NCBI RefSeq assembly: GCF_036669915.1
Contig: NW_027078186.1
Location: 1-64,000, forward strand
DNA: 64,000 bases
From: Pocillopora verrucosa
Taxonomy: Eukaryota > Cnidaria > Anthozoa > Scleractinia > Pocilloporidae
Reading direction: 5' to 3'
Both the position numbers and the translations under genes were made by a program. Each line of letters starts with the position of its first letter. Within the stretch, counting starts at the first letter, position 1. The notes beneath the pieces were generated by a model that worked only from the letters and a program-made list of their open reading frames with translations, made no database searches and had not been told where the DNA came from. This document shows, one piece after another, positions 34,557 through 56,696 of this stretch.

Positions 34557-34867
34557 TTTTGCCTGCGTTATAGTATCGCGCGTGGATTCGTGGATTCACA
34601 AGTGTCTTTGGATTAAAGAAGCAGGATTTTTTGTAAGTATTATTGTGTTCTGGTTTGGCTGTTTTTTTCTGGTGACCCTCCCAGGGACTCATGCTCGGCT
34701 CCTTGCCGTAACCTGGGGTAGCCAGTCTCTGGTTGTTTTTCCAGTCTTGGGCTGGATTGGCTTTTCTTCTTGGCTTTTTTGGCCTGTTGAGTGTGGTATT
34801 TTGCCAGCTCACAGGTTTTGCCGTTTTTTCGGGTCACCCATCCACTTTTGGGTTGTTTGTTTTTGCC

Positions 34868-36421
34868 ATGGGTGTTGAGTGTGTCAGGACGTGCGTGATT
34901 CACGCGTCAGTGATGTTGGCTAATTATGATAAGGACCGTGTGATGGCTCTCCTTAGGGAGCATATTGATTTTGAAAGGCTTTCTGCCATTCAGTTTTGCC
35001 CTAGGGGCTTGATTCGTATTACTTTTAAGAATGTCTCAGACAAAGAAGAATTTGTGCGTATGGGTTCACTGGCGTTGGATGGGCACGATCTTAGTGTGAC
35101 GTCTTCTGATAAGCCGCCGTCTTTTGTGTATGTACACTATTTTCCTGCCGAAGGTGACGATGCTCTGATCTGTGATGAGCTAAGAAAATACGGAGAAGTT
35201 ATCAGTATTAAGCACCAGAATTTTTCAGGAATTCCGGGCCTTCTAACTGGGTCACGGATTCTTAGGATGTTATTATCGGATCCAGTCCCTGCTGAGTTCC
35301 GCATTGACGACTATCCTGTGCGGGTTTGGTATAGGGGTATCCCTCCGTTCTGCCAGATATGTAAAGTTAATGGCCATAAGGCCGCAGATTGCCAGTTCAA
35401 CGGAAAATGTAGAAGGTGTGGTTCCCCAGACCACAAAGCGCATGCGTGTGTCCGGCCGTGGGGTCAGTCTGTTGTTCCAACAGAGGCAGCTGTCCCTGAG
35501 GCGGTCCCTGACCCCTCTGGGACTGTTGTGCCTGTTGTCTCTGAAAGTTCTGCCGGTTTGGATAAGGGTGTGGTTGTGGATGTGATTGAGGGTGCGGTTG
35601 AAGATGTGGTTGTGGAGAATGTGGTTTCGGATGAGGATGATGAGGATGTAGTCGAGGGTGTGGTTGAAGATGGGGTTGTGGAGAATGAGGTTTCGGATAC
35701 GATTGAGGATGCTGTGGATGCTAATGTGGAGGATGAGGTTGCTGTTAGTACCCCTGTTCCTGTCCCTAGTCGAGTTAGTGCTCCTGTTGAGTTGGGGCTA
35801 GCCCCCCCGGTCCCTGTAGTGACTGAGGATGTGCAGACCCCCGCAGATTCTGTTATTCGTAGGAAGGTTTTGAAGTGGTATCGGGATGAGTTATGCCGCT
35901 GTTCTAAGGATCAAGCCTTTGTTCTGTCCTACAGGGATATGAGGGTGCGTGAGGTTTCCCCTACGGATTTTTTGGAGTTGGTGTCGGTAGTTTTGGAAAA
36001 TGTGGATCCAAATCTTCTTCGTATCGCTAGAGTGGATACGAGTGGTGAGCAGTCTGAAGTGGGTTTTGCGCAGTATCTTCTTGAAGTACAGGGGGACCCT
36101 TCCTTTTTGATTGGTTTCAGGGGCTCTCTTGTTGACCAGATTGGTCCTACGGAGCATGATAACGTTTTGTGTGTGGAGTTTGTGGACCTCAATGGTCGGC
36201 AATGTCGGAGGCTTCCCGCCAAGGCTTTGTGGGTTAAGAAGGCCACAGTTTGTAATTTTACCAGTACCAATGTGGATAATAGTGTAATTAATGTTGTAAA
36301 TGATGGCGTTTCTAAGTCTCGTCCTGTGGTCCCTACTGCTGCAGTTCTTGCTGCAGAGCTGCTGAAGCGTTCTGCCCCCCCTTCTGTTGTGGGAGTTCCG
36401 AAATGTAGGAAGAAATTGTAG
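34868..36421 (+). CDS. ORF1/Gag-like protein with two CCHC knuckles, copy A
   Basis: The frame is open from 34733, but the ATG at 34868 has a strong context (GCCATGG) and gives 517 aa starting MGVECVRT, so I prefer it. Residues about 25-75 and 85-155 look like two RRM-like folds (the second begins FVYVHYFP and ends near VRVWYRG), typical of LINE ORF1 proteins that coat element RNA. Zinc knuckles CX2CX4HX4C follow at about 162-175 (CQICKVNGHKAADC) and 181-194 (CRRCGSPDHKAHAC). Residues about 233-292 are an acidic Val/Glu/Asp tract with an imperfect repeat (VEDVVVENVVSD, VEDGVVENEVSD). The C-terminal part of about 220 aa is not recognised. Copy A lacks five residues (GVSLS) present in B and ends in a different frame from B because a C-run is one base longer. 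Confidence 0.85.
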   Translation: MGVECVRTCVIHASVMLANYDKDRVMALLREHIDFERLSAIQFCPRGLIRITFKNVSDKEEFVRMGSLALDGHDLSVTSSDKPPSFVYVHYFPAEGDDALICDELRKYGEVISIKHQNFSGIPGLLTGSRILRMLLSDPVPAEFRIDDYPVRVWYRGIPPFCQICKVNGHKAADCQFNGKCRRCGSPDHKAHACVRPWGQSVVPTEAAVPEAVPDPSGTVVPVVSESSAGLDKGVVVDVIEGAVEDVVVENVVSDEDDEDVVEGVVEDGVVENEVSDTIEDAVDANVEDEVAVSTPVPVPSRVSAPVELGLAPPVPVVTEDVQTPADSVIRRKVLKWYRDELCRCSKDQAFVLSYRDMRVREVSPTDFLELVSVVLENVDPNLLRIARVDTSGEQSEVGFAQYLLEVQGDPSFLIGFRGSLVDQIGPTEHDNVLCVEFVDLNGRQCRRLPAKALWVKKATVCNFTSTNVDNSVINVVNDGVSKSRPVVPTAAVLAAELLKRSAPPSVVGVPKCRKKL

Positions 36422-36604
36422 TAAATATTAGTAAACAATACTATCTAAGTAAATAATATGTGAATAAAGTATTTAAGTCCTGGTTTTAAATAATGTAATA
36501 TTGTAAATAATAGTTTTTCTATGTTTTTGTATCCGTTTTTGTTCGTTTGTTTTGGAGTGGGCGTGTTCAATTTTTGGGTGTGAGTGTGTTCAATGTTTGC
36601 GAGG

Positions 36605-36621
36605 TGGGGTTCGATTCCCCA
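36605..36621 (+). other. tRNA T-arm-like hairpin in element 3' UTR, copy A
   Basis: TGGGG-TTCGATT-CCCCA forms a five-pair stem with a seven-base loop, and contains GGTTCGATTCC, a perfect fit to the Pol III B box. No convincing A box or other tRNA arms are seen upstream, so it may be a relic of a tRNA or SINE-like tail, or chance. The same hairpin is in copies B and C. Confidence 0.5.
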
Positions 36622-36660
36622 ACGAAGTTGGTGTCTGGTGGCCCTCGGTTTATGGTGGAC

Positions 36661-36730
36661 CCAACCCTAAGGCATTGCACTTTCAGCCATGGGTTGGATT
36701 AGGTCTGAGATCGGCAGGCATTGCACCGCC
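36661..36730 (+). other. Twin AUUGCAC hairpins in element 3' UTR, copy A
   Basis: The 11-mer AGGCATTGCAC occurs twice, with ATTGCAC at 36674-36680 and 36720-36726. The first sits as GGC[ATTGCACTTTCA]GCC inside an outer stem CCAACCC (36661-36667) / GGGTTGG (36691-36697). The second is GGC[ATTGCACC]GCC. AUUGCAC directly after a closing C-G pair is what U1A-family proteins bind in U1 stem-loop II. The U1 genes here share CATTGCACTT with the first box. Function is inferred. Confidence 0.6.
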
Positions 36731-36767
36731 CTCACGGGAGCCTGGCCGTTCACCTTAAATATAAAAA

Positions 36768-36843
36768 ACTTACCTGACGCGGGAGGTACTGTGATCAAGG
36801 AGGCAGTCCTCTCAAGGCGAGGCCCTTTCATTGCACTTCGACT

Positions 36844-36886
<43 letters not shown>

Positions 36887-36930
36887 TATAATTTCTGGTA
36901 GTGGGGACCTGCGTTCGCGCTCGTCCCCGC
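36768..36930 (+). pseudogene. U1 snRNA 3' portion (nt 3 to end), unit 16
   Basis: Because of the target duplication, U1 from ACTTACCTG to the 3' end is present after the element, lacking only the first two bases, and is followed by the usual downstream sequence. It has lost its promoter and would be made only by read-through. Confidence 0.93.
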
Positions 36931-37909
36931 AAAAGTCATCCAAACTATGTCTATATGGCCCTCTTACTGACTATCGAGGGTATTTTTGCTTTTGCAGTGG
37001 ACCGGTAGACTTGCAAAGAAAGCAAAGGACGCACAACTGGCCAAGGTGTTGGCACGTTTGGAGGGGTAGAAGTGCATTGGAGAGACTGGAGGAAGGAAAC
37101 AAGGTGAGTTTCGGGGCGGTGCGTAACTTTGCTGGCTGTTTTTGTTCAAGGCCTGTCTGCTCTATTGTGTGTAAAGTCCTGTTCGTTTGTATTTGCAGGT
37201 TGTGCGTGCCGTGCCGTGCTGTGCTATGCGCGCGAAGGGAAAGGAAATGAAAGGAAACCAAACGGCCGATCGACCGAGCGAGCGAGCATAGAAGGGCATT
37301 CGACTTGGACCGTGAGTACACTTTGAACCTTTTGAGCGGTTTTATTGTCACTGGAGCCGCTTTTAGAAATGCTATTGCTATCGTTAGTGTATCCTTTGTG
37401 CGAGCAAGCGAGTGAACGAATGAACGAGGGAAGGAAACAAACTAGCAGAGTAGTAAAAGTATCGAACCTTTTTCCCGATTCGTTTGCAGTCTGAATCCAA
37501 CCATTGTCGACTTTCAGTGCCGTTTTCGCGCGCCTCCTCTTGGAAGTGTGCGAGTGTTTTGCCACGTCACGATGGCTTAAAACTGCGTCTCAGAAGTGTG
37601 CGTTTTTTTCCTATTCATTTTTTCGTTCGTTATTTGGAATGATTTGATATCACAGAAGTAGAATTTGACATCATAAACTGTTCATCTCGCGCGTGCTCAC
37701 TCGCTCGCGCGCGCTCTGTAAGAAAAGTCGATCGCACTAGAGTTTTCGCCATTAGCTGGCCGATTTTTGACAAAAAGGTGTTTTCCCCCCCTCGTTTTTT
37801 GCTTTGATTTTGTTCCTCACTCACCTACGGCTCTCTATGTGAAATTGTGGTGTATGGAGAGCTATTTATTGGGATAAAACGTTTAGAGATGTTCGCAAGA
37901 CAAAAATTG

Positions 37910-37933
37910 AAGCCTACAACACGGGGTATTCCC

Positions 37934-37968
<35 letters not shown>

Positions 37969-38029
37969 CAGGGCTTAACTTCGGTGATCGGACGAGAACC
38001 GGTGCTTTCCCTGTGGTATGGTCGTAGAC
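37910..38029 (-). rRNA. 5S rRNA, unit 17
   Basis: A 120-nt copy matching the reference; the T-run behind it is five T. Confidence 0.97.
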
Positions 38030-38535
38030 GAGGAAATGGGGTCGAAATTCTGCTTGTTATCGGCCAGGTTCAGGCTGTAAAGCGGCCACATCCCTGAGTG
38101 TAGGCGAATTTGAAATTCTAAAGCCCTAGTTTCGTTACTCTAACCCTAAGAAATCGATACTCTAACCCTAAGAAATTGTTACCCTAACCCTAAGAAATGG
38201 TTACCCTAACCCCGAAGTCGTTACCTAACCCTAATGTATTTTCCTCAACCCAGTTAACACATTGAGGAGCATCGATTTGAAGCACTATTCCCTAGGGAGG
38301 GGAGGGAGGGGTCCCAAGAGACATAACGTGTCCTAAAAACCTATTATACAATGTTTTAGCTCCGTAGGTGCGTGTATCTGGCTTTAAAATCTTACAGTGA
38401 GGAGATACCAAACGGGTCAGCCTCTGGGACCGTCTGCGGGACTCGCAAGGGCTTGTGGGGGCGACCTGCTACTATCCACCATAAACCGTGGGAAGGATCC
38501 CTCGACCACCCCCCTCACCCAGGGCATGCTTCGGC

Positions 38536-38722
38536 ATCNNNNNNNNNNNNNNNNNNNNNNNNNNNNNNNNNNNNNNNNNNNNNNNNNNNNNNNNNNNNNN
38601 NCGCTGCTCATTGAGCAGCTCATATATTAAACTGATTTTTGGAACTGGGCTGTGGAAAAGAGGCTTGCCTCGTCCCAGCCACGGGTTGCCTCGGTATAGC
38701 ACTACCTCCGAGTGCGGCCCAC
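38536..38722 (+). ncRNA. U2 snRNA, unit 17
   Basis: ATC, 63 N (38539-38601), then U2 core. Confidence 0.95.
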
Positions 38723-38959
38723 TTCCCTCTGGGGAAGACACATTCAATCCAAAACAAAGTCAACGGTATAGCATTCTTTTATGTTTACAGGAGCCCCGCC
38801 CGCCCTTAGAGGGGGAAGAGGTGAAAGAGGGATGATAATTCAGACAACAGACAATGGCAGGAACGGCCGCTGGCCTACGTTTTCTGAAGTGCGCAAAGCA
38901 CTACCACAAGGACCTAGGGGTAAGTGGATTTTTTCACCGAGGGCAGACGCTGAAAAAGC

Positions 38960-39037
38960 ATACTTACCTGACGCGGGAGGTACTGTGATCAAGGAGGCAG
39001 TCCTCTCAAGGCGAGGCCCTTTCATTGCACTTCGACT

Positions 39038-39080
<43 letters not shown>

Positions 39081-39124
39081 TATAATTTCTGGTAGTGGGG
39101 ACCTGCGTTCGCGCTCGTCCCCGC
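38960..39124 (+). ncRNA. U1 snRNA, unit 17
   Basis: Full-length, uninterrupted copy just after the first element-bearing unit. Confidence 0.97.
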
Positions 39125-40104
39125 AAAAGTCATCCAAACTATGTCTATATGGCCCTCTTACTGACTATCGAGGGTATTTTTGCTTTTGCAGTGGACCGGT
39201 AGACTTGCAAAGAAAGCAAAGGACGCACAACTGGCCAAGGTGTTGGCACGTTTGGAGGGGTAGAAGTGCATTGGAGAGACTGGAGGAAGGAAACAAGGTG
39301 AGTTTCGGGGCGGTGCGTAACTTTGCTGGCTGTTTTTGTTCAAGGCCTGTCTGCTCTATTGTGTGTAAAGTCCTGTTCGTTTGTATTTGCAGGTTGTGCG
39401 TGCCGTGCCGTGCTGTGCTATGCGCGCGAAGGGAAAGGAAATGAAAGGAAACCAAACGGCCGATCGACCGAGCGAGCGAGCATAGAAGGGCATTCGACTT
39501 GGACCGTGAGTACACTTTGAACCTTTTGAGCGGTTTTATTGTCACTGGAGCCGCTTTTAGAAATGCTATTGCTATCGTTAGTGTATCCTTTGTGCGAGCA
39601 AGCGAGTGAACGAATGAACGAGGGAAGGAAACAAACTAGCAGAGTAGTAAAAGTATCGAACCTTTTTCCCGATTCGTTTGCAGTCTGAATCCAACCATTG
39701 TCGACTTTCAGTGCCGTTTTTCGCGCGCCTCCTCTTGGAAGTGTGCGAGTGTTTTGCCACGTCACGATGGCTTAAAACTGCGTCTCAGAAGTGTGCGTTT
39801 TTTTCCTATTCATTTTTTCGTTCGTTATTTGGAATGATTTGATATCACAGAAGTAGAATTTGACATCATAAACTGTTCATCTCGCGCGTGCTCACTCGCT
39901 CGCGCGCGCTCTGTAAGAAAAGTCGATCGCACTAGAGTTTTCGCCATTAGCTGGCCGATTTTTGACAAAAAGGTGTTTTCCCCCCCTCGTTTTTGCTTTG
40001 ATTTTGTTCCTCACTCACCTACGGCTCTCTATGTGAAATTGTGGTGTATGGAGAGCTATTTATTGGGATAAAACGTTTAGAGATGTGCGGAAGACAAAAA
40101 ATTG

Positions 40105-40227
40105 AAGCCTACAACACGGGGTATTCCCAGGCGGGTCACCCATCCAAGTACTAACCCCGACCGACAGGGCTTAACTTCGGTGATCGGACGAGAACCGGTG
40201 CTTTCCCTGTGGTTATGGTCGTTAGAC
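40105..40227 (-). rRNA. 5S rRNA, unit 18, variant copy
   Basis: It is stretched to 123 nt by single-base additions (plus-strand GGCGGGTCACC, GTGGTTATGGTCGTTAGAC) and has a substitution in CCCCGACCGACAGG. The changes touch both the C-box region and the 5' end. It is a pseudogene candidate or noisy sequence. Confidence 0.88.
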
Positions 40228-40736
40228 GAGGAAAATGGGGTCGAAATTCGGCTTGTTATCGGCCAGGTTCAGGCTGTAAAGCGGACACATCCCTGAGTGT
40301 AGGCGAATTTGAAATTCTAAAAGCCCTAGTTTCGTTACTCTAACCCTAAGAAATCGATCCTATAAACCTAAGAAATTGTTCACCTAACCCTAAGAAATGG
40401 TTACCCTAACCCCGAAGTAGTTCCCTAAACCTAATGTATTTTCCTCAACCAGTTAACACATTGAGGAGAATCGATTTGAAGCACTATTCCCTAGGGAGGG
40501 GAGGGAGGGGTCCCAAGAGGACATAACGTTGTCCTAAAAACCTATTATACAATGTTTTAGCTCCGTAGGTGCGTGTATCTGGCTTTAAAATCTTACAGTG
40601 AGGAGATACCAAACGGGTCAGCCTCTGGGACCGTCTGCGGGACTCGCAAGGGCTTGTGGGGGCGACCTGCTACTATCCACCATAAACCGTGGGAAGGATC
40701 CCTCGACCACCCCCCTCACCCAGGGCATGCTTCGGC

Positions 40737-40923
40737 ATCNNNNNNNNNNNNNNNNNNNNNNNNNNNNNNNNNNNNNNNNNNNNNNNNNNNNNNNNNNNNN
40801 NNCGCTGATCATTGAGCAGCTCATATATTAAACTGATGTTTGGAACTGGGCTGTGGAAAAGAGGCTTGCCTCGTCCCAGCCACGGGTTGCCTCGGTATAG
40901 CACTACCTCCGAGTGCGGCCCAC
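40737..40923 (+). ncRNA. U2 snRNA, unit 18, altered Sm site
   Basis: ATC, 63 N (40740-40802), then U2 core with two substitutions. One is CGCTGATCATTGAGC in the first visible hairpin. The other is ATGTTTGG where all other copies have the Sm site ATTTTTGG. If real, Sm-ring assembly on this RNA would be weakened. Confidence 0.9.
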
Positions 40924-41160
40924 TTCCCTCTGGGGAAGACACATTCAATCCAAAACAAAGTCAACGGTATAGCATTCTTTTATGTTTACAGGAGCCCCGC
41001 CCGCCCTTAGAGGGGGAAGAGGTGAAAGAGGGATGATAATTCAGACAACAGACAATGGCAGGAACGGCCGCTGGCCTACGTTTTCTGAAGTGCGCAAAGC
41101 ACTACCACAAGGACCTAGGGGTAAGTGGATTTTTTCACCGAGGGCAGACGCTGAAAAAGC

Positions 41161-41238
41161 ATACTTACCTGACGCGGGAGGTACTGTGATCAAGGAGGCA
41201 GTCCTCTCAAGGCGAGGCCCTTTCATTGCACTTCGACT

Positions 41239-41281
<43 letters not shown>

Positions 41282-41325
41282 TATAATTTCTGGTAGTGGG
41301 GACCTGCGTTCGCGCTCGTCCCCGC
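41161..41325 (+). ncRNA. U1 snRNA, unit 18
   Basis: Full-length copy matching the reference. Confidence 0.97.
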
Positions 41326-42306
41326 AAAAGTCATCCAAACTATGTCTATATGGCCCTCTTACTGACTATCGAGGGTATTTTTGCTTTTGCAGTGGACCGG
41401 TAGACTTGCAAAGAAAGCAAAGGACGCACAACTGGCCAAGGTGTTGGCACGTTTGGAGGGGTAGAAGTGCATTGGAGAGACTGGAGGAAGGAAACAAGGT
41501 GAGTTTCGGGGCGGTGCGTAACTTTGCTGGCTGTTTTTGTTCAAGGCCTGTCTGCTCTATTGTGTGTAAAGTCCTGTTCGTTTGTATTTGCAGGTTGTGC
41601 GTGCCGTGCCGTGCTGTGCTATGCGCGCGAAGGGAAAGGAAATGAAAGGAAACCAAACGGCCGATCGACCGAGCGAGCGAGCATAGAAGGGCATTCGACT
41701 TGGACCGTGAGTACACTTTGAACCTTTTGAGCGGTTTTATTGTCACTGGAGCCGCTTTTAGAAATGCTATTGCTATCGTTAGTGTATCCTTTGTGCGAGC
41801 AAGCGAGTGAACGAATGAACGAGGGAAGGAAACAAACTAGCAGAGTAGTAAAAGTATCGAACCTTTTTCCCGATTCGTTTGCAGTCTGAATCCAACCATT
41901 GTCGACTTTCAGTGCCGTTTTTCGCGCGCCTCCTCTTGGAAGTGTGCGAGTGTTTTGCCACGTCACGATGGCTTAAAACTGCGTCTCAGAAGTGTGCGTT
42001 TTTTTCCTATTCATTTTTTCGTTCGTTATTTGGAATGATTTGATATCACAGAAGTAGAATTTGACATCATAAACTGTTCATCTCGCGCGTGCTCACTCGC
42101 TCGCGCGCGCTCTGTAAGAAAAGTCGATCGCACTAGAGTTTTCGCCATTAGCTGGCCGATTTTTGACAAAAAGGTGTTTTCCCCCCCTCGTTTTTTGCTT
42201 TGATTTTGTTCCTCACTCACCTACGGCTCTCTATGTGAAATTGTGGTGTATGGAGAGCTATTTATTGGGATAAAACGTTTAGAGATGTTCGCAAGACAAA
42301 AAATTG

Positions 42307-42330
42307 AAGCCTACAACACGGGGTATTCCC

Positions 42331-42365
<35 letters not shown>

Positions 42366-42426
42366 CAGGGCTTAACTTCGGTGATCGGACGAGAACCGGT
42401 GCTTTCCCTGTGGTATGGTCGTAGAC
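42307..42426 (-). rRNA. 5S rRNA, unit 19
   Basis: A 120-nt copy; no difference seen. Confidence 0.97.
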
Positions 42427-42932
42427 GAGGAAATGGGGTCGAAATTCTGCTTGTTATCGGCCAGGTTCAGGCTGTAAAGCGGCCACATCCCTGAGTGTAG
42501 GCGAATTTGAAATTCTAAAGCCCTAGTTTCGTTACTCTAACCCTAAGAAATCGATACTCTAACCCTAAGAAATTGTTACCCTAACCCTAAGAAATGGTTA
42601 CCCTAACCCCGAAGTCGTTACCTAACCCTAATGTATTTTCCTCAACCCAGTTAACACATTGAGGAGCATCGATTTGAAGCACTATTCCCTAGGGAGGGGA
42701 GGGAGGGGTCCCAAGAGACATAACGTGTCCTAAAAACCTATTATACAATGTTTTAGCTCCGTAGGTGCGTGTATCTGGCTTTAAAATCTTACAGTGAGGA
42801 GATACCAAACGGGTCAGCCTCTGGGACCGTCTGCGGGACTCGCAAGGGCTTGTGGGGGCGACCTGCTACTATCCACCATAAACCGTGGGAAGGATCCCTC
42901 GACCACCCCCCTCACCCAGGGCATGCTTCGGC

Positions 42933-43119
42933 ATCNNNNNNNNNNNNNNNNNNNNNNNNNNNNNNNNNNNNNNNNNNNNNNNNNNNNNNNNNNNNNNNCG
43001 CTGCTCATTGAGCAGCTCATATATTAAACTGATTTTTGGAACTGGGCTGTGGAAAAGAGGCTTGCCTCGTCCCAGCCACGGGTTGCCTCGGTATAGCACT
43101 ACCTCCGAGTGCGGCCCAC
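42933..43119 (+). ncRNA. U2 snRNA, unit 19
   Basis: ATC, 63 N (42936-42998), then U2 core. Confidence 0.95.
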
Positions 43120-43356
43120 TTCCCTCTGGGGAAGACACATTCAATCCAAAACAAAGTCAACGGTATAGCATTCTTTTATGTTTACAGGAGCCCCGCCCGC
43201 CCTTAGAGGGGGAAGAGGTGAAAGAGGGATGATAATTCAGACAACAGACAATGGCAGGAACGGCCGCTGGCCTACGTTTTCTGAAGTGCGCAAAGCACTA
43301 CCACAAGGACCTAGGGGTAAGTGGATTTTTTCACCGAGGGCAGACGCTGAAAAAGC

Positions 43357-43434
43357 ATACTTACCTGACGCGGGAGGTACTGTGATCAAGGAGGCAGTCC
43401 TCTCAAGGCGAGGCCCTTTCATTGCACTTCGACT

Positions 43435-43477
<43 letters not shown>

Positions 43478-43521
43478 TATAATTTCTGGTAGTGGGGACC
43501 TGCGTTCGCGCTCGTCCCCGC
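43357..43521 (+). ncRNA. U1 snRNA, unit 19
   Basis: Full-length copy matching the reference. Confidence 0.97.
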
Positions 43522-44502: not shown

Positions 44503-44526
44503 AAGCCTACAACACGGGGTATTCCC

Positions 44527-44561
<35 letters not shown>

Positions 44562-44622
44562 CAGGGCTTAACTTCGGTGATCGGACGAGAACCGGTGCTT
44601 TCCCTGTGGTATGGTCGTAGAC
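44503..44622 (-). rRNA. 5S rRNA, unit 20
   Basis: A 120-nt copy; no difference seen. Confidence 0.97.
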
Positions 44623-45552: not shown

Positions 45553-45570
45553 ATACTTACCTGACGCGGG
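45553..45570 (+). pseudogene. U1 snRNA 5' fragment (nt 1-18), unit 20
   Basis: The same 18-nt stub as in unit 16, left by insertion at the same base. Confidence 0.95.
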
Positions 45571-45881
45571 TTTTGCCTGCGTTATAGTATCGCGCGTGGA
45601 TTCGTGGATTCACAAGTGTCTTTGGATTAAAGAAGCAGGATTTTTTGTAAGTATTATTGTGTTCTGGTTTGGCTGTTTTTTTCTGGTGACCCTCCCAGGG
45701 ACTCATGCTCGGCTCCTTGCCGTAACCTGGGGTAGCCAGTCTCTGGTTGTTTTTCCAGTCTTGGGCTGGATTGGCTTTTCTTCTTGGCTTTTTTGGCCTG
45801 TTGAGTGTGGTATTTTGCCAGCTCACAGGTTTTGCCGTTTTTTCGGGTCACCCATCCACTTTTGGGTTGTTTGTTTTTGCC

Positions 45882-47459
45882 ATGGGTGTTGAGTGTGTCA
45901 GGACGTGCGTGATTCACGCGTCAGTGATGTTGGCTAATTATGATAAGGACCGTGTGATGGCTCTCCTTAGGGAGCATATTGATTTTGAAAGGCTTTCTGC
46001 CATTCAGTTTTGCCCTAGGGGCTTGATTCGTATTACTTTTAAGAATGTCTCAGACAAAGAAGAATTTGTGCGTATGGGTTCACTGGCGTTGGATGGGCAC
46101 GATCTTAGTGTGACGTCTTCTGATAAGCCGCCGTCTTTTGTGTATGTACACTATTTTCCTGCCGAAGGTGACGATGCTCTGATCTGTGATGAGCTAAGAA
46201 AATACGGAGAAGTTATCAGTATTAAGCACCAGAATTTTTCAGGAATTCCGGGCCTTCTAACTGGGTCACGGATTCTTAGGATGTTATTATCGGATCCAGT
46301 CCCTGCTGAGTTCCGCATTGACGACTATCCTGTGCGGGTTTGGTATAGGGGTATCCCTCCGTTCTGCCAGATATGTAAAGTTAATGGCCATAAGGCCGCA
46401 GATTGCCAGTTCAACGGAAAATGTAGAAGGTGTGGTTCCCCAGACCACAAAGCGCATGCGTGTGTCCGGCCGTGGGGTCAGTCTGTTGTTCCAACAGAGG
46501 CAGCTGTCCCTGAGGCGGTCCCTGACCCCTCTGGGACTGTTGTGCCTGTTGTCTCTGAAAGTTCTGCCGGTTTGGATAAGGGTGTGGTTGTGGATGTGAT
46601 TGAGGGTGCGGTTGAAGATGTGGTTGTGGAGAATGTGGTTTCGGATGAGGATGATGAGGATGTAGTCGAGGGTGTGGTTGAAGATGGGGTTGTGGAGAAT
46701 GAGGTTTCGGATACGATTGAGGATGCTGTGGATGCTAATGTGGAGGATGAGGTTGCTGTTAGTACCCCTGTTCCTGTCCCTAGTCGAGTTAGTGCTCCTG
46801 TTGAGTTGGGGCTAGCCCCCCCGGTCCCTGTAGTGACTGAGGATGTGCAGACCCCCGCAGATTCTGTTATTCGTAGGAAGGTTTTGAAGTGGTATCGGGA
46901 TGAGTTATGCCGCTGTTCTAAGGATCAAGCCTTTGTTCTGTCCTACAGGGATATGAGGGTGCGTGAGGTTTCCCCTACGGATTTTTTGGAGTTGGTGTCG
47001 GTAGTTTTGGAAAATGGGGTGTCTCTCAGTGTGGATCCAAATCTTCTTCGTATCGCTAGAGTGGATACGAGTGGTGAGCAGTCTGAAGTGGGTTTTGCGC
47101 AGTATCTTCTTGAAGTACAGGGGGACCCTTCCTTTTTGATTGGTTTCAGGGGCTCTCTTGTTGACCAGATTGGTCCTACGGAGCATGATAACGTTTTGTG
47201 TGTGGAGTTTGTGGACCTCAATGGTCGGCAATGTCGGAGGCTTCCCGCCAAGGCTTTGTGGGTTAAGAAGGCCACAGTTTGTAATTTTACCAGTACCAAT
47301 GTGGATAATAGTGTAATTAATGTTGTAAATGATGGCGTTTCTAAGTCTCGTCCTGTGGTCCCTACTGCTGCAGTTCTTGCTGCAGAGCTGCTGAAGCGTT
47401 CTGCCCCCCTTCTGTTGTGGGAGTTCCGAAATGTAGGAAGAAATTGTAGTAAATATTAG
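45882..47459 (+). CDS. ORF1/Gag-like protein with two CCHC knuckles, copy B
   Basis: 525 aa from the GCCATGG start. The order is the same as in copy A: two RRM-like regions, two CX2CX4HX4C knuckles, the acidic Val-rich repeat tract, and an unrecognised C-terminal region that here contains the segment LENGVSLSVDPN. The last residues read RSAPLLLWEFRNVGRNCSKY rather than the ending of copy A, because of C-run length. Which ending is original cannot be told from three copies. Confidence 0.87.
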   Translation: MGVECVRTCVIHASVMLANYDKDRVMALLREHIDFERLSAIQFCPRGLIRITFKNVSDKEEFVRMGSLALDGHDLSVTSSDKPPSFVYVHYFPAEGDDALICDELRKYGEVISIKHQNFSGIPGLLTGSRILRMLLSDPVPAEFRIDDYPVRVWYRGIPPFCQICKVNGHKAADCQFNGKCRRCGSPDHKAHACVRPWGQSVVPTEAAVPEAVPDPSGTVVPVVSESSAGLDKGVVVDVIEGAVEDVVVENVVSDEDDEDVVEGVVEDGVVENEVSDTIEDAVDANVEDEVAVSTPVPVPSRVSAPVELGLAPPVPVVTEDVQTPADSVIRRKVLKWYRDELCRCSKDQAFVLSYRDMRVREVSPTDFLELVSVVLENGVSLSVDPNLLRIARVDTSGEQSEVGFAQYLLEVQGDPSFLIGFRGSLVDQIGPTEHDNVLCVEFVDLNGRQCRRLPAKALWVKKATVCNFTSTNVDNSVINVVNDGVSKSRPVVPTAAVLAAELLKRSAPLLLWEFRNVGRNCSKY

Positions 47460-47687
47460 TAAACAATACTATCTAAGTAAATAATATGTGAATAAAGTAT
47501 TTAAGTCCTGGTTTTAAATAATGTAATATTGTAAATAATAGTTTTTCTATGTTTTTGTATCCGTTTTTGTTCGTTTGTTTTGGAGTGGGCGTGTTCAATT
47601 TTGGGTGTGAGTGTGTTCAATGTTTGCGAGGTGGGGTTCGATTCCCCAACGAAGTTGGTGTCTGGTGGCCCTCGGTTTATGGTGGAC

Positions 47688-47757
47688 CCAACCCTAAGGC
47701 ATTGCACTTTCAGCCATGGGTTGGATTAGGTCTGAGATCGGCAGGCATTGCACCGCC
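47688..47757 (+). other. Twin AUUGCAC hairpins in element 3' UTR, copy B
   Basis: ATTGCAC at 47701-47707 and 47747-47753 in the same GGC/GCC hairpin setting as copy A, with no change seen. Confidence 0.6.
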
Positions 47758-47795
47758 CTCACGGGAGCCTGGCCGTTCACCTTAAATATAAAAAA

Positions 47796-47871
47796 ACTTA
47801 CCTGACGCGGGAGGTACTGTGATCAAGGAGGCAGTCCTCTCAAGGCGAGGCCCTTTCATTGCACTTCGACT

Positions 47872-47914
<43 letters not shown>

Positions 47915-47958
47915 TATAATTTCTGGTAGTGGGGACCTGCGTTCGCGCTCGTCCCCGC
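47796..47958 (+). pseudogene. U1 snRNA 3' portion (nt 3 to end), unit 20
   Basis: U1 without its first two bases and without a promoter, directly after the A-run of copy B. Its sequence is otherwise like intact U1. Confidence 0.93.
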
Positions 47959-48938
47959 AAAAGTCATCCAAACTATGTCTATATGGCCCTCTTACTGACT
48001 ATCGAGGGTATTTTTGCTTTTGCAGTGGACCGGTAGACTTGCAAAGAAAGCAAAGGACGCACAACTGGCCAAGGTGTTGGCACGTTTGGAGGGGTAGAAG
48101 TGCATTGGAGAGACTGGAGGAAGGAAACAAGGTGAGTTTCGGGGCGGTGCGTAACTTTGCTGGCTGTTTTTGTTCAAGGCCTGTCTGCTCTATTGTGTGT
48201 AAAGTCCTGTTCGTTTGTATTTGCAGGTTGTGCGTGCCGTGCCGTGCTGTGCTATGCGCGCGAAGGGAAAGGAAATGAAAGGAAACCAAACGGCCGATCG
48301 ACCGAGCGAGCGAGCATAGAAGGGCATTCGACTTGGACCGTGAGTACACTTTGAACCTTTTGAGCGGTTTTATTGTCACTGGAGCCGCTTTTAGAAATGC
48401 TATTGCTATCGTTAGTGTATCCTTTGTGCGAGCAAGCGAGTGAACGAATGAACGAGGGAAGGAAACAAACTAGCAGAGTAGTAAAAGTATCGAACCTTTT
48501 TCCCGATTCGTTTGCAGTCTGAATCCAACCATTGTCGACTTTCAGTGCCGTTTTTCGCGCGCCTCCTCTTGGAAGTGTGCGAGTGTTTTGCCACGTCACG
48601 ATGGCTTAAAACTGCGTCTCAGAAGTGTGCGTTTTTTTCCTATTCATTTTTTCGTTCGTTATTTGGAATGATTTGATATCACAGAAGTAGAATTTGACAT
48701 CATAAACTGTTCATCTCGCGCGTGCTCACTCGCTCGCGCGCGCTCTGTAAGAAAAGTCGATCGCACTAGAGTTTTCGCCATTAGCTGGCCGATTTTTGAC
48801 AAAAAGGTGTTTTCCCCCCTCGTTTTTTGCTTTGATTTTGTTCCTCACTCACCTACGGCTCTCTATGTGAAATTGTGGTGTATGGAGAGCTATTTATTGG
48901 GATAAAACGTTTAGAGATGTTCGCAAGACAAAAAATTG

Positions 48939-48962
48939 AAGCCTACAACACGGGGTATTCCC

Positions 48963-48997
<35 letters not shown>

Positions 48998-49058
48998 CAG
49001 GGCTTAACTTCGGTGATCGGACGAGAACCGGTGCTTTCCCTGTGGTATGGTCGTAGAC
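48939..49058 (-). rRNA. 5S rRNA, unit 21
   Basis: A 120-nt copy; no difference seen. Confidence 0.97.
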
Positions 49059-49564
49059 GAGGAAATGGGGTCGAAATTCTGCTTGTTATCGGCCAGGTTC
49101 AGGCTGTAAAGCGGCCACATCCCTGAGTGTAGGCGAATTTGAAATTCTAAAGCCCTAGTTTCGTTACTCTAACCCTAAGAAATCGATACTCTAACCCTAA
49201 GAAATTGTTACCCTAACCCTAAGAAATGGTTACCCTAACCCCGAAGTCGTTACCTAACCCTAATGTATTTTCCTCAACCCAGTTAACACATTGAGGAGCA
49301 TCGATTTGAAGCACTATTCCCTAGGGAGGGGAGGGAGGGGTCCCAAGAGACATAACGTGTCCTAAAAACCTATTATACAATGTTTTAGCTCCGTAGGTGC
49401 GTGTATCTGGCTTTAAAATCTTACAGTGAGGAGATACCAAACGGGTCAGCCTCTGGGACCGTCTGCGGGACTCGCAAGGGCTTGTGGGGGCGACCTGCTA
49501 CTATCCACCATAAACCGTGGGAAGGATCCCTCGACCACCCCCCTCACCCAGGGCATGCTTCGGC

Positions 49565-49751
49565 ATCNNNNNNNNNNNNNNNNNNNNNNNNNNNNNNNNN
49601 NNNNNNNNNNNNNNNNNNNNNNNNNNNNNNCGCTGCTCATTGAGCAGCTCATATATTAAACTGATTTTTGGAACTGGGCTGTGGAAAAGAGGCTTGCCTC
49701 GTCCCAGCCACGGGTTGCCTCGGTATAGCACTACCTCCGAGTGCGGCCCAC
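49565..49751 (+). ncRNA. U2 snRNA, unit 21
   Basis: ATC, 63 N (49568-49630), then U2 core. Confidence 0.95.
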
Positions 49752-49988
49752 TTCCCTCTGGGGAAGACACATTCAATCCAAAACAAAGTCAACGGTATAG
49801 CATTCTTTTATGTTTACAGGAGCCCCGCCCGCCCTTAGAGGGGGAAGAGGTGAAAGAGGGATGATAATTCAGACAACAGACAATGGCAGGAACGGCCGCT
49901 GGCCTACGTTTTCTGAAGTGCGCAAAGCACTACCACAAGGACCTAGGGGTAAGTGGATTTTTTCACCGAGGGCAGACGCTGAAAAAGC

Positions 49989-50066
49989 ATACTTACCTGA
50001 CGCGGGAGGTACTGTGATCAAGGAGGCAGTCCTCTCAAGGCGAGGCCCTTTCATTGCACTTCGACT

Positions 50067-50109
<43 letters not shown>

Positions 50110-50153
50110 TATAATTTCTGGTAGTGGGGACCTGCGTTCGCGCTCGTCCCCGC
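49989..50153 (+). ncRNA. U1 snRNA, unit 21
   Basis: Full-length copy matching the reference. Confidence 0.97.
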
Positions 50154-51134
50154 AAAAGTCATCCAAACTATGTCTATATGGCCCTCTTACTGACTATCGA
50201 GGGTATTTTTGCTTTTGCAGTGGACCGGTAGACTTGCAAAGAAAGCAAAGGACGCACAACTGGCCAAGGTGTTGGCACGTTTGGAGGGGTAGAAGTGCAT
50301 TGGAGAGACTGGAGGAAGGAAACAAGGTGAGTTTCGGGGCGGTGCGTAACTTTGCTGGCTGTTTTTGTTCAAGGCCTGTCTGCTCTATTGTGTGTAAAGT
50401 CCTGTTCGTTTGTATTTGCAGGTTGTGCGTGCCGTGCCGTGCTGTGCTATGCGCGCGAAGGGAAAGGAAATGAAAGGAAACCAAACGGCCGATCGACCGA
50501 GCGAGCGAGCATAGAAGGGCATTCGACTTGGACCGTGAGTACACTTTGAACCTTTTGAGCGGTTTTATTGTCACTGGAGCCGCTTTTAGAAATGCTATTG
50601 CTATCGTTAGTGTATCCTTTGTGCGAGCAAGCGAGTGAACGAATGAACGAGGGAAGGAAACAAACTAGCAGAGTAGTAAAAGTATCGAACCTTTTTCCCG
50701 ATTCGTTTGCAGTCTGAATCCAACCATTGTCGACTTTCAGTGCCGTTTTTCGCGCGCCTCCTCTTGGAAGTGTGCGAGTGTTTTGCCACGTCACGATGGC
50801 TTAAAACTGCGTCTCAGAAGTGTGCGTTTTTTTCCTATTCATTTTTTCGTTCGTTATTTGGAATGATTTGATATCACAGAAGTAGAATTTGACATCATAA
50901 ACTGTTCATCTCGCGCGTGCTCACTCGCTCGCGCGCGCTCTGTAAGAAAAGTCGATCGCACTAGAGTTTTCGCCATTAGCTGGCCGATTTTTGACAAAAA
51001 GGTGTTTTCCCCCCCTCGTTTTTTGCTTTGATTTTGTTCCTCACTCACCTACGGCTCTCTATGTGAAATTGTGGTGTATGGAGAGCTATTTATTGGGATA
51101 AAACGTTTAGAGATGTTCGCAAGACAAAAAATTG

Positions 51135-51158
51135 AAGCCTACAACACGGGGTATTCCC

Positions 51159-51193
<35 letters not shown>

Positions 51194-51254
51194 CAGGGCT
51201 TAACTTCGGTGATCGGACGAGAACCGGTGCTTTCCCTGTGGTATGGTCGTAGAC
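51135..51254 (-). rRNA. 5S rRNA, unit 22
   Basis: A 120-nt copy; no difference seen. Confidence 0.97.
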
Positions 51255-51760
51255 GAGGAAATGGGGTCGAAATTCTGCTTGTTATCGGCCAGGTTCAGGC
51301 TGTAAAGCGGCCACATCCCTGAGTGTAGGCGAATTTGAAATTCTAAAGCCCTAGTTTCGTTACTCTAACCCTAAGAAATCGATACTCTAACCCTAAGAAA
51401 TTGTTACCCTAACCCTAAGAAATGGTTACCCTAACCCCGAAGTCGTTACCTAACCCTAATGTATTTTCCTCAACCCAGTTAACACATTGAGGAGCATCGA
51501 TTTGAAGCACTATTCCCTAGGGAGGGGAGGGAGGGGTCCCAAGAGACATAACGTGTCCTAAAAACCTATTATACAATGTTTTAGCTCCGTAGGTGCGTGT
51601 ATCTGGCTTTAAAATCTTACAGTGAGGAGATACCAAACGGGTCAGCCTCTGGGACCGTCTGCGGGACTCGCAAGGGCTTGTGGGGGCGACCTGCTACTAT
51701 CCACCATAAACCGTGGGAAGGATCCCTCGACCACCCCCCTCACCCAGGGCATGCTTCGGC

Positions 51761-51947
51761 ATCNNNNNNNNNNNNNNNNNNNNNNNNNNNNNNNNNNNNN
51801 NNNNNNNNNNNNNNNNNNNNNNNNNNCGCTGCTCATTGAGCAGCTCATATATTAAACTGATTTTTGGAACTGGGCTGTGGAAAAGAGGCTTGCCTCGTCC
51901 CAGCCACGGGTTGCCTCGGTATAGCACTACCTCCGAGTGCGGCCCAC
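51761..51947 (+). ncRNA. U2 snRNA, unit 22
   Basis: ATC, 63 N (51764-51826), then U2 core. Confidence 0.95.
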
Positions 51948-52184
51948 TTCCCTCTGGGGAAGACACATTCAATCCAAAACAAAGTCAACGGTATAGCATT
52001 CTTTTATGTTTACAGGAGCCCCGCCCGCCCTTAGAGGGGGAAGAGGTGAAAGAGGGATGATAATTCAGACAACAGACAATGGCAGGAACGGCCGCTGGCC
52101 TACGTTTTCTGAAGTGCGCAAAGCACTACCACAAGGACCTAGGGGTAAGTGGATTTTTTCACCGAGGGCAGACGCTGAAAAAGC

Positions 52185-52262
52185 ATACTTACCTGACGCG
52201 GGAGGTACTGTGATCAAGGAGGCAGTCCTCTCAAGGCGAGGCCCTTTCATTGCACTTCGACT

Positions 52263-52305
<43 letters not shown>

Positions 52306-52349
52306 TATAATTTCTGGTAGTGGGGACCTGCGTTCGCGCTCGTCCCCGC
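52185..52349 (+). ncRNA. U1 snRNA, unit 22
   Basis: Full-length copy matching the reference. Confidence 0.97.
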
Positions 52350-53329
52350 AAAAGTCATCCAAACTATGTCTATATGGCCCTCTTACTGACTATCGAGGGT
52401 ATTTTTGCTTTTGCAGTGGACCGGTAGACTTGCAAAGAAAGCAAAGGACGCACAACTGGCCAAGGTGTTGGCACGTTTGGAGGGGTAGAAGTGCATTGGA
52501 GAGACTGGAGGAAGGAAACAAGGTGAGTTTCGGGGCGGTGCGTAACTTTGCTGGCTGTTTTTGTTCAAGGCCTGTCTGCTCTATTGTGTGTAAAGTCCTG
52601 TTCGTTTGTATTTGCAGGTTGTGCGTGCCGTGCCGTGCTGTGCTATGCGCGCGAAGGGAAAGGAAATGAAAGGAAACCAAACGGCCGATCGACCGAGCGA
52701 GCGAGCATAGAAGGGCATTCGACTTGGACCGTGAGTACACTTTGAACCTTTTGAGCGGTTTTATTGTCACTGGAGCCGCTTTTAGAAATGCTATTGCTAT
52801 CGTTAGTGTATCCTTTGTGCGAGCAAGCGAGTGAACGAATGAACGAGGGAAGGAAACAAACTAGCAGAGTAGTAAAAGTATCGAACCTTTTTCCCGATTC
52901 GTTTGCAGTCTGAATCCAACCATTGTCGACTTTCAGTGCCGTTTTTCGCGCGCCTCCTCTTGGAAGTGTGCGAGTGTTTTGCCACGTCACGATGGCTTAA
53001 AACTGCGTCTCAGAAGTGTGCGTTTTTTTCCTATTCATTTTTTCGTTCGTTATTTGGAATGATTTGATATCACAGAAGTAGAATTTGACATCATAAACTG
53101 TTCATCTCGCGCGTGCTCACTCGCTCGCGCGCGCTCTGTAAGAAAAGTCGATCGCACTAGAGTTTTCGCCATTAGCTGGCCGATTTTTGACAAAAAGGTG
53201 TTTTCCCCCCTCGTTTTTTGCTTTGATTTTGTTCCTCACTCACCTACGGCTCTCTATGTGAAATTGTGGTGTATGGAGAGCTATTTATTGGGATAAAACG
53301 TTTAGAGATGTTCGCAAGACAAAAAATTG

Positions 53330-53353
53330 AAGCCTACAACACGGGGTATTCCC

Positions 53354-53388
<35 letters not shown>

Positions 53389-53449
53389 CAGGGCTTAACT
53401 TCGGTGATCGGACGAGAACCGGTGCTTTCCCTGTGGTATGGTCGTAGAC
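53330..53449 (-). rRNA. 5S rRNA, unit 23
   Basis: A 120-nt copy; no difference seen. Confidence 0.97.
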
Positions 53450-53955
53450 GAGGAAATGGGGTCGAAATTCTGCTTGTTATCGGCCAGGTTCAGGCTGTAA
53501 AGCGGCCACATCCCTGAGTGTAGGCGAATTTGAAATTCTAAAGCCCTAGTTTCGTTACTCTAACCCTAAGAAATCGATACTCTAACCCTAAGAAATTGTT
53601 ACCCTAACCCTAAGAAATGGTTACCCTAACCCCGAAGTCGTTACCTAACCCTAATGTATTTTCCTCAACCCAGTTAACACATTGAGGAGCATCGATTTGA
53701 AGCACTATTCCCTAGGGAGGGGAGGGAGGGGTCCCAAGAGACATAACGTGTCCTAAAAACCTATTATACAATGTTTTAGCTCCGTAGGTGCGTGTATCTG
53801 GCTTTAAAATCTTACAGTGAGGAGATACCAAACGGGTCAGCCTCTGGGACCGTCTGCGGGACTCGCAAGGGCTTGTGGGGGCGACCTGCTACTATCCACC
53901 ATAAACCGTGGGAAGGATCCCTCGACCACCCCCCTCACCCAGGGCATGCTTCGGC

Positions 53956-54142
53956 ATCNNNNNNNNNNNNNNNNNNNNNNNNNNNNNNNNNNNNNNNNNN
54001 NNNNNNNNNNNNNNNNNNNNNCGCTGCTCATTGAGCAGCTCATATATTAAACTGATTTTTGGAACTGGGCTGTGGAAAAGAGGCTTGCCTCGTCCCAGCC
54101 ACGGGTTGCCTCGGTATAGCACTACCTCCGAGTGCGGCCCAC
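53956..54142 (+). ncRNA. U2 snRNA, unit 23
   Basis: ATC, 63 N (53959-54021), then U2 core. Confidence 0.95.
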
Positions 54143-54379
54143 TTCCCTCTGGGGAAGACACATTCAATCCAAAACAAAGTCAACGGTATAGCATTCTTTT
54201 ATGTTTACAGGAGCCCCGCCCGCCCTTAGAGGGGGAAGAGGTGAAAGAGGGATGATAATTCAGACAACAGACAATGGCAGGAACGGCCGCTGGCCTACGT
54301 TTTCTGAAGTGCGCAAAGCACTACCACAAGGACCTAGGGGTAAGTGGATTTTTTCACCGAGGGCAGACGCTGAAAAAGC

Positions 54380-54397
54380 ATACTTACCTGACGCGGG
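54380..54397 (+). pseudogene. U1 snRNA 5' fragment (nt 1-18), unit 23
   Basis: The same 18-nt stub and junction as in units 16 and 20. Confidence 0.95.
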
Positions 54398-54708
54398 TTT
54401 TGCCTGCGTTATAGTATCGCGCGTGGATTCGTGGATTCACAAGTGTCTTTGGATTAAAGAAGCAGGATTTTTTGTAAGTATTATTGTGTTCTGGTTTGGC
54501 TGTTTTTTTCTGGTGACCCTCCCAGGGACTCATGCTCGGCTCCTTGCCGTAACCTGGGGTAGCCAGTCTCTGGTTGTTTTTCCAGTCTTGGGCTGGATTG
54601 GCTTTTCTTCTTGGCTTTTTTGGCCTGTTGAGTGTGGTATTTTGCCAGCTCACAGGTTTTGCCGTTTTTTCGGGTCACCCATCCACTTTTGGGTTGTTTG
54701 TTTTTGCC

Positions 54709-55884
54709 ATGGGTGTTGAGTGTGTCAGGACGTGCGTGATTCACGCGTCAGTGATGTTGGCTAATTATGATAAGGACCGTGTGATGGCTCTCCTTAGGGA
54801 GCATATTGATTTTGAAAGGCTTTCTGCCATTCAGTTTTGCCCTAGGGGCTTGATTCGTATTACTTTTAAGAATGTCTCAGACAAAGAAGAATTTGTGCGT
54901 ATGGGTTCACTGGCGTTGGATGGGCACGATCTTAGTGTGACGTCTTCTGATAAGCCGCCGTCTTTTGTGTATGTACACTATTTTCCTGCCGAAGGTGACG
55001 ATGCTCTGATCTGTGATGAGCTAAGAAAATACGGAGAAGTTATCAGTATTAAGCACCAGAATTTTTCAGGAATTCCGGGCCTTCTAACTGGGTCACGGAT
55101 TCTTAGGATGTTATTATCGGATCCAGTCCCTGCTGAGTTCCGCATTGACGACTATCCTGTGCGGGTTTGGTATAGGGGTATCCCTCCGTTCTGCCAGATA
55201 TGTAAAGTTAATGGCCATAAGGCCGCAGATTGCCAGTTCAACGGAAAATGTAGAAGGTGTGGTTCCCCAGACCACAAAGCGCATGCGTGTGTCCGGCCGT
55301 GGGGTCAGTCTGTTGTTCCAACAGAGGCAGCTGTCCCTGAGGCGGTCCCTGACCCCTCTGGGACTGTTGTGCCTGTTGTCTCTGAAAGTTCTGCCGGTTT
55401 GGATAAGGGTGTGGTTGTGGATGTGATTGAGGGTGCGGTTGAAGATGTGGTTGTGGAGAATGTGGTTTCGGATGAGGATGATGAGGATGTAGTCGAGGGT
55501 GTGGTTGAAGATGGGGTTGTGGAGAATGAGGTTTCGGATACGATTGAGGATGCTGTGGATGCTAATGTGGAGGATGAGGTTGCTGTTAGTACCCCTGTTC
55601 CTGTCCCTAGTCGAGTTAGTGCTCCTGTTGAGTTGGGGCTAGCCCCCCCGGTCCCTGTAGTGACTGAGGATGTGCAGACCCCCGCAGATTCTGTTATTCG
55701 TAGGAAGGTTTTGAAGTGGTATCGGGATGAGTTATGCCGCTGTTCTAAGGATCAAGCCTTTGTTCTGTCCTACAGGGATATGAGGGTGCGTGAGGTTTCC
55801 CTACGGATTTTTGGAGTTGGTGTCGGTAGTTTTGGAAAATGGGGTGTCTCTCAGTGTGGATCCAAATCTTCTTCGTATCGCTAG
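54709..55884 (+). CDS. ORF1/Gag-like protein, copy C, shortened
   Basis: From the same GCCATGG start this copy reads 391 aa, keeping both RRM-like regions, both zinc knuckles and the acidic Val-rich tract. It then leaves the family frame after VREVS and stops at 55884. The remaining C-terminal sequence is present in another frame up to 56284. RNA-binding parts would be unaffected if this product is made. Confidence 0.8.
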   Translation: MGVECVRTCVIHASVMLANYDKDRVMALLREHIDFERLSAIQFCPRGLIRITFKNVSDKEEFVRMGSLALDGHDLSVTSSDKPPSFVYVHYFPAEGDDALICDELRKYGEVISIKHQNFSGIPGLLTGSRILRMLLSDPVPAEFRIDDYPVRVWYRGIPPFCQICKVNGHKAADCQFNGKCRRCGSPDHKAHACVRPWGQSVVPTEAAVPEAVPDPSGTVVPVVSESSAGLDKGVVVDVIEGAVEDVVVENVVSDEDDEDVVEGVVEDGVVENEVSDTIEDAVDANVEDEVAVSTPVPVPSRVSAPVELGLAPPVPVVTEDVQTPADSVIRRKVLKWYRDELCRCSKDQAFVLSYRDMRVREVSLRIFGVGVGSFGKWGVSQCGSKSSSYR

Positions 55885-56513
55885 AGTGGATACGAGTGGT
55901 GAGCAGTCTGAAGTGGGTTTTGCGCAGTATCTTCTTGAAGTACAGGGGGACCCTTCCTTTTTGATTGGTTTCAGGGGCTCTCTTGTTGACCAGATTGGTC
56001 CTACGGAGCATGATAACGTTTTGTGTGTGGAGTTTGTGGACCTCAATGGTCGGCAATGTCGGAGGCTTCCCGCCAAGGCTTTGTGGGTTAAGAAGGCCAC
56101 AGTTTGTAATTTTACCAGTACCAATGTGGATAATAGTGTAATTAATGTTGTAAATGATGGCGTTTCTAAGTCTCGTCCTGTGGTCCCTACTGCTGCAGTT
56201 CTTGCTGCAGAGCTGCTGAAGCGTTCTGCCCCCCTTCTGTTGTGGGAGTTCCGAAATGTAGGAAGAAATTGTAGTAAATATTAGTAAACAATACTATCTA
56301 AGTAAATAATATGTGAATAAAGTATTTAAGTCCTGGTTTTAAATAATGTAATATTGTAAATAATAGTTTTTCTATGTTTTTGTATCCGTTTTTGTTCGTT
56401 TGTTTTGGAGTGGGCGTGTTCAATTTTTGGGTGTGAGTGTGTTCAATGTTTGCGAGGTGGGGTTCGATTCCCCAACGAAGTTGGTGTCTGGTGGCCCTCG
56501 GTTTATGGTGGAC

Positions 56514-56583
56514 CCAACCCTAAGGCATTGCACTTTCAGCCATGGGTTGGATTAGGTCTGAGATCGGCAGGCATTGCACCGCC
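56514..56583 (+). other. Twin AUUGCAC hairpins in element 3' UTR, copy C
   Basis: ATTGCAC at 56527-56533 and 56573-56579, same setting as in copies A and B. Confidence 0.6.
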
Positions 56584-56620
56584 CTCACGGGAGCCTGGCC
56601 GTTCACCTTAAATATAAAAA

Positions 56621-56696
56621 ACTTACCTGACGCGGGAGGTACTGTGATCAAGGAGGCAGTCCTCTCAAGGCGAGGCCCTTTCATTGCACTTCGACT

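Follow-up and report, generated by a model that had tools for sequence, protein, structure and literature searches.

In an array of small-RNA genes, an insert of ~2.2 kb interrupts three U1 snRNA genes at the same base; we believe it is probably a non-autonomous, ORF1-only retroelement of the LINE (non-LTR) type with U1 genes as its home. The window (the whole 64-kb stretch of DNA analysed) is a tandem array with a unit of ~2,196 bp, composed of U1 (+), 5S (−), and U2 (+). Rfam finds 25 above-cutoff U1 matches in it, and one further, noisy U1 lies near 5.9 kb. The spacer of the array contains TTAGGG-type repeats, which together with the array point to an animal host, and the 5S gene may resemble that of cnidarians. 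Our literature search returned no account of linked U1, U2, and 5S genes in corals.

The boundaries of the insert can be read directly. U1 nucleotides 1–18 end at positions 34556, 45570, and 54397, the insert begins directly after them in all three copies, and U1 then restarts at nucleotide 3 or 4. The resulting target duplication is 16 bp long (ACTTACCTGACGCGGG), or 15 bp (CTTACCTGACGCGGG) if the one shared A is assigned to the tail; the A-tail itself (TATAAAAAA) has six A's including the shared one, and seven in copy 2. The 5′ end (TTTTGCC..., TTTTGCCTGCG...) and the 3′ end (TATAAAAA(A)) are common to all three copies, and self-comparison gives an internal coding repeat only, without terminal repeats. 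Target duplication, A-rich 3′ end, and lack of LTRs are together those of a LINE-type insertion, and no copy of the element lies outside U1 within the 64 kb. The preliminary description of this DNA had placed the junctions after U1 nucleotide 18, with a 15–16-bp duplication and an A-rich end, and its coordinates prove exact to the base save for the shared A.

Positions of the element copies, their target duplications, and their features in the 64-kb window
Feature	Position	Strand	Remarks
U1 nt 1–18 before copy 1	34539–34556	+	5′ duplication copy ACTTACCTGACGCGGG at 34541–34556; promoter region intact
Element copy 1	34557–36767	+	End 36767/36768, one-A ambiguity
ORF1-like gene, copy 1	34868–36421	+	517 aa; open frame extends back to 34712
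Two CX2CX4HX4C zinc knuckles	35351–35449	+	Residues 162–194 of the 517-aa protein
3′ UTR of copy 1	36422–36767	+	346 nt; stop codons; AATAAA at 36463–36468
First ATTGCAC (U1A/SNF-type heptamer)	36674–36680	+	Predicted in a 12-nt hairpin loop closed by C-G (GGC/GCC)
Second ATTGCAC	36720–36726	+	Predicted mostly in an internal loop
3′ target duplication, copy 1	36768–36783	+	U1 from nt 3 runs to 36929; no promoter directly upstream
Element copy 2	45571–47795	+	End 47795/47796, one-A ambiguity; duplications: 5′ 45555–45570, 3′ 47796–47811
ORF of copy 2	45882–47459	+	525 aa; C-terminus shifted by C-run length; 15 extra bp at 47015–47029
Element copy 3	54398–56620	+	End 56620/56621, one-A ambiguity; duplications: 5′ 54382–54397, 3′ 56621–56636
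ORF of copy 3	54709–55884	+	391 aa; shortened by single-base homopolymer differences

Copy 1 carries one long reading frame, open for 569 codons from stop to stop, and in 1,000 dinucleotide shuffles the longest open frame reached 215 codons. The two zinc knuckles of its protein (CQICKVNGHKAADC and CRRCGSPDHKAHAC) were found by inspection; Pfam zf-CCHC, at E 0.0005 and 20.5 bits just under the cutoff of 20.8, is the sole match in the protein, and NCBIfam gives none. The knuckles are followed by an acidic, repetitive linker and then by a C-terminal part without detectable relatives. On their N-terminal side Pfam finds no RRM, and the predicted secondary structure is beta-alpha-beta-beta-alpha, the order of an RRM, at low confidence (pLDDT about 50). 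Type I ORF1 proteins have an RRM immediately upstream of the CCHC knuckles (PMC4120745), and a putative RRM-like domain followed by knuckles would make the protein a type I ORF1. Mean pLDDT values of AlphaFold models built without an alignment were 34.5 and 40.6, too low to classify the protein, and Foldseek returned nothing from the PDB at E ≤ 0.001. The label “ORF1/gag-like” is thus well supported by the knuckles and their context and is as fine as the assignment goes; a tie of the putative ORF1 to the Tx1 clade is an impression gained from the RRM-CCHC layout. The lack of a clade assignment for the ORF1 counts against our reading, as does the lack of relatives in IMG/VR (viral) and GTDB (prokaryotic), although neither collection is a promising source of animal elements.

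In nine open frames from the insert region, taken from both strands, Pfam finds no reverse transcriptase (RT), endonuclease, RNase H, or transposase. The preliminary description had called the insert an ORF1- or gag-only retroelement in U1, and the hallmarks of target-primed reverse transcription, the ORF, the knuckles, and the lack of an RT in the window bear this out. It had also held that each copy encodes an ORF1-like protein with two CCHC knuckles and no RT: the knuckles and the missing RT stand, but the 517-aa frame is found only in copy 1, copies 2 and 3 being altered in homopolymers. These frameshifts speak against our reading unless they are assembly errors, and homopolymers are noisy in this assembly.

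It is quite possible that “gag-only” describes these three copies and not a separate lineage, and that they derive by internal deletion from an autonomous, U1-specific LINE with ORF1 and ORF2. Internal deletion is a common origin of non-autonomous elements, such as the R2 SIDEs (PMC3414825), both U2 and 5S are already targets of Tx1-clade LINEs (PMC4640811, PMC3706591), and some source of RT is required in any case. Against such a deletion, all three copies have the same RT-less layout, in which a clean stop is followed directly by the 3′ UTR, and the window contains no full-length copy.

How many insertion events the three copies represent bears directly on whether the element is specific for U1. 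Aligned together with 300-bp flanks, the inserts show zero substitutions and differ in one 15-bp in-frame indel (missing in copy 1) and in single-base homopolymer lengths. The array has undergone strong homogenisation, its empty units being as alike as the filled ones when the obviously noisy units are set aside. Three independent insertions are therefore not demonstrable, as one amplified insertion would look the same, and this weighs against our reading: the three copies demonstrate neither independent insertion nor site preference. Of the earlier statement that three copies sit at the same base, the positions hold, but not their independence as evidence for targeting. A single chance insertion of an ORF1-only or internally deleted LINE-type element, with no preference for U1, could then have been multiplied by unequal exchange or gene conversion. 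Such an origin, which would also account for the identical 5′ end and duplication, seems to us possible but rather unlikely, even though the chance of U1 being hit by one random insertion is about 7.5%. Against it, the filled units are irregularly spaced (four units, then three), and the insertion point lies within the most conserved stretch of U1. In Drosophila rDNA, moreover, Eickbush and Eickbush attribute the likeness of R1 and R2 copies to the recency of all insertions, and high amplification of one inserted unit was never seen (PMC3414825), which leans toward repeated insertion here.

The inferred nick site also argues against chance. The bottom-strand site that we infer for the insert is not T-rich. 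Unspecialised L1-type endonucleases typically nick at TTTT/AA, and the difference from that site favours a dedicated endonuclease. Given this site, the complete 5′ end, and the insertion into the most conserved stretch of U1, specificity for U1 is likely on the sequence evidence, but short of demonstrated.

Two further explanations are very improbable. A domesticated, gag-derived host gene, carried as a passenger of the array and expressed from the U1 promoter, would fit the single long ORF of copy 1 and the intact upstream promoter, but the target duplication and A-tail are those of recent retroposition and two of the three copies are frameshifted as assembled. An assembly artefact, with chimeric joins or duplicated contig segments, might be suspected because some array units are clearly noisy, but the junctions are clean and biologically sensible, complete with target duplication, and the 15-bp indel tells the copies apart.

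For an ORF1-only element at home in U1 genes, a simple cycle can be proposed. Over the 350 bp that precede the U1 gene, each filled unit matches an empty unit exactly, so that the U1 promoter should be usable. A metazoan PSE-type motif was looked for there and could not be pinned down. From this intact promoter, transcription would pass through U1 nucleotides 1–18 straight into the sense-oriented insert and might continue through the almost complete U1 that follows. The RNA would be translated into the 517-aa nucleic-acid-binding protein, with its probably RRM-like domains and two knuckles, which would coat its own RNA. Because the element encodes neither RT nor endonuclease, both must be provided in trans, and an autonomous LINE not seen here would be their source. 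Its endonuclease would nick an empty U1 gene on the bottom strand at about CAGGTAAGT/AT, the complement of the first U1 nucleotides; reverse transcription would be primed at the short A-tail (target-primed reverse transcription), and a cut of the top strand after nucleotide 18 would give the 15–16-bp duplication. Of all this, the sequence itself shows the insert with its junctions and duplication, the ORF and knuckles, the lack of an RT in the inserts, and the unchanged promoter region, whereas the RRM fold, transcription from the U1 promoter, the RT in trans, and specificity for U1 are inferred.

Parts of this scheme have counterparts among known elements. HAL1 of mammals is likewise an ORF1-only LINE derivative, descended from L1; unlike the U1 element it is not site-specific, and its L1-type ORF1 is without CCHC knuckles. 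In its way of working the U1 element would resemble HeT-A of Drosophila telomeres, which, as the preliminary description stated, is an ORF1-only retroelement: it is of the non-LTR type, encodes one structural protein but no RT, and relies on another element to retrotranspose (PMC4700185). HeT-A is also confined to one genomic niche. It joins chromosome ends, whereas the present element enters a defined U1 base with a target duplication. In Drosophila 28S rDNA, the R2 and hybrid R2/R1 SIDEs are also non-autonomous, occupy a multicopy RNA gene, and are moved by an autonomous element, the hybrids with 14-bp target duplications (PMC3414825); SIDEs differ in their 28S target, in having no protein gene, and in retaining the 5′ ribozyme and 3′ end. 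Unlike R2, and as a further point against our reading, the element has no HDV-like ribozyme at its 5′ end (Rfam at E ≤ 5 over 34200–37000 gives U1 and U2 only).

The preliminary description also named Keno and Utopia in U2, Mutsu in 5S, and Dada in U1. Keno, which has an apurinic-like endonuclease, and Mutsu are site-specific LINEs in multicopy small-RNA genes, but autonomous and directed to U2 or 5S (PMC4640811, PMC3706591). Utopia is a site-specific LINE in an snRNA gene with 20-bp duplications in some families (PMC4640811); it differs in its U2 target and in its single protein with RT and restriction-like endonuclease. Dada-U1A/B of zebrafish do sit in U1 genes (PMC3706591), but they are DDE-transposase DNA transposons with 6–8-bp duplications, another U1 site, and no A-tail. 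A Dada-U1 transposon was accordingly considered for the insert and rejected, since the nine scanned frames contain no DDE transposase and the insert lacks a 6–8-bp GCGAAT/C duplication (PMC3706591).

Up to 2015, reports of transposons in snRNA genes were limited to Keno and Utopia (both in U2), Dada-U1, and Dada-U6 (PMC4640811), and we found no U1 retroelement in a 2022 paper on Dada (PMC8869645). In the literature searched, with Repbase and most subscription journals outside it, we found no retroelement in U1 genes, which accordingly appears unreported within that literature; the earlier remark that no gag-only, U1-specific element is known agrees with this within the same bounds. The parts are known (a gag-only LINE-type element, an RNA-gene target, target-primed insertion), and it is their combination at U1 that is not. 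If U1 specificity is true, this would be the first retroelement reported in U1 genes within the literature searched, and a gag-only element held to one target, like HeT-A, in which the contribution of gag alone to targeting could be tested away from telomeres. The parasite would also occupy a gene whose RNA product defines 5′ splice sites, and the duplicated target includes the nucleotides that pair with the splice site.

The 3′ region holds a second possible link to U1. Both copies of ATTGCAC fall within ~100 nt of the 3′ end of the insert, and the region is identical in all three element copies; the motif, which occurs at least twice in 0.16% of whole-element shuffles, was noticed post hoc. 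In RNA, AUUGCAC is the loop sequence of U1 stem-loop II that U1A contacts along with the C-G pair closing the loop. Selection also recovered it in loops of other sizes, and the U1A pre-mRNA has a near-identical site within an internal loop (PMC2203988). The sequence around the first heptamer aligns over 24 columns with stem-loop II of the host U1 (P 0.04). The fold of the 3′ domain, at −42.4 kcal/mol, has a z of only −0.89, and its structure is therefore unsupported by energy alone. ATTGCAC also occurs close to the ends of Dada-U1 transposons, where it matches U1 (PMC3706591), and its presence there as well as here may be coincidence.

From these heptamers one could picture a U1-specific, gag-only lineage that uses U1 twice, first as promoter and then through an RNA with two candidate U1A/SNF sites, its RT again coming from another element. 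A host U1 snRNP protein would join the RNP and either steer it to U1 genes or block early polyadenylation at AATAAA 36463. We regard this extension as improbable; if true, the element RNA would mimic part of the RNA of its own target. The AATAAA is in any case awkward for an ORF1-only retroelement in U1, as it lies 300 nt before the 3′ end and fits the observed end poorly unless bypassed.

Other signals in the 3′ region are minor. An Sm-like AATTTTTGG at 36569 falls short of significance (P 0.07 by shuffles), and the insert contains no Rfam or tRNA families apart from the U1/U2 flanks. A perfect B box (GGTTCGATTCC) at 36608–36618 (P 0.003 by shuffles) comes with a T-arm-like hairpin; the tRNA-derived tail that it suggested was rejected, as ARAGORN finds no tRNA and no acceptor stem is seen. 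Finally, the 3′ UTR has an 18-bp antisense match, for which we found no mechanism, to the sequence upstream of U2, with P 0.004 when the 3′ UTR is shuffled and 0.016 when the element is.

Throughout the window, one tandem unit of ~2,196 bp links U1, 5S (on the opposite strand) and U2. The 3' UTR of the insert, the ORF1-only retroelement that enters U1, carries a perfect pol III B-box with a T-arm-like hairpin (TGGGGTTCGATTCCCCA), at which no tRNA was called, and, further downstream, an 18-bp antisense match (17/18) to the region about 44–61 bp upstream of U2; shuffled 3' UTRs give this match a P of about 0.004. At ~20–26 bp upstream of their starts, U1 and U2 have TCACCSAGGGCA in common, possibly a promoter element that the two genes share in this host.

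Nearly all U2 genes have their 5' part hidden under a run of Ns, of which each unit has one (that listed and 24 more), 63 bases long, or 73 in a single unit. These runs look like masking, not gaps, and the short U2 matches are therefore really full-length genes; one U2 is complete and free of masking.

Coordinates of features in the array and the insert
Feature	Position
Complete U2	1097-1287
N run	3281-3343
Noisy units	5.9-8.1 kb; units at 27927, 30138, 38960
TCACCSAGGGCA, U1	8140-8151
Splice-site-like sequences	about 8.4-8.9 kb
Telomere-like repeats	about 9.5-9.65 kb
Partner of antisense match	9875-9892
TCACCSAGGGCA, U2	9915-9926
B-box/hairpin, insert 3' UTR	36605-36621
Antisense match, insert 3' UTR	36642-36659

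Noisy units carry scattered single-base insertions and A/C swaps, with near-identical units beside them (one noisy stretch has 92.6% identity and 67 gaps), which looks like poorly corrected long reads and not real divergence.

In the spacer following U1, several sequences resemble splice donors and acceptors (AAGGTGAGT, TTTGCAG) and might belong to a spliced non-coding host transcript. Past the 5S gene, the spacer of every unit contains degenerate CCCTAA telomere-like repeats.
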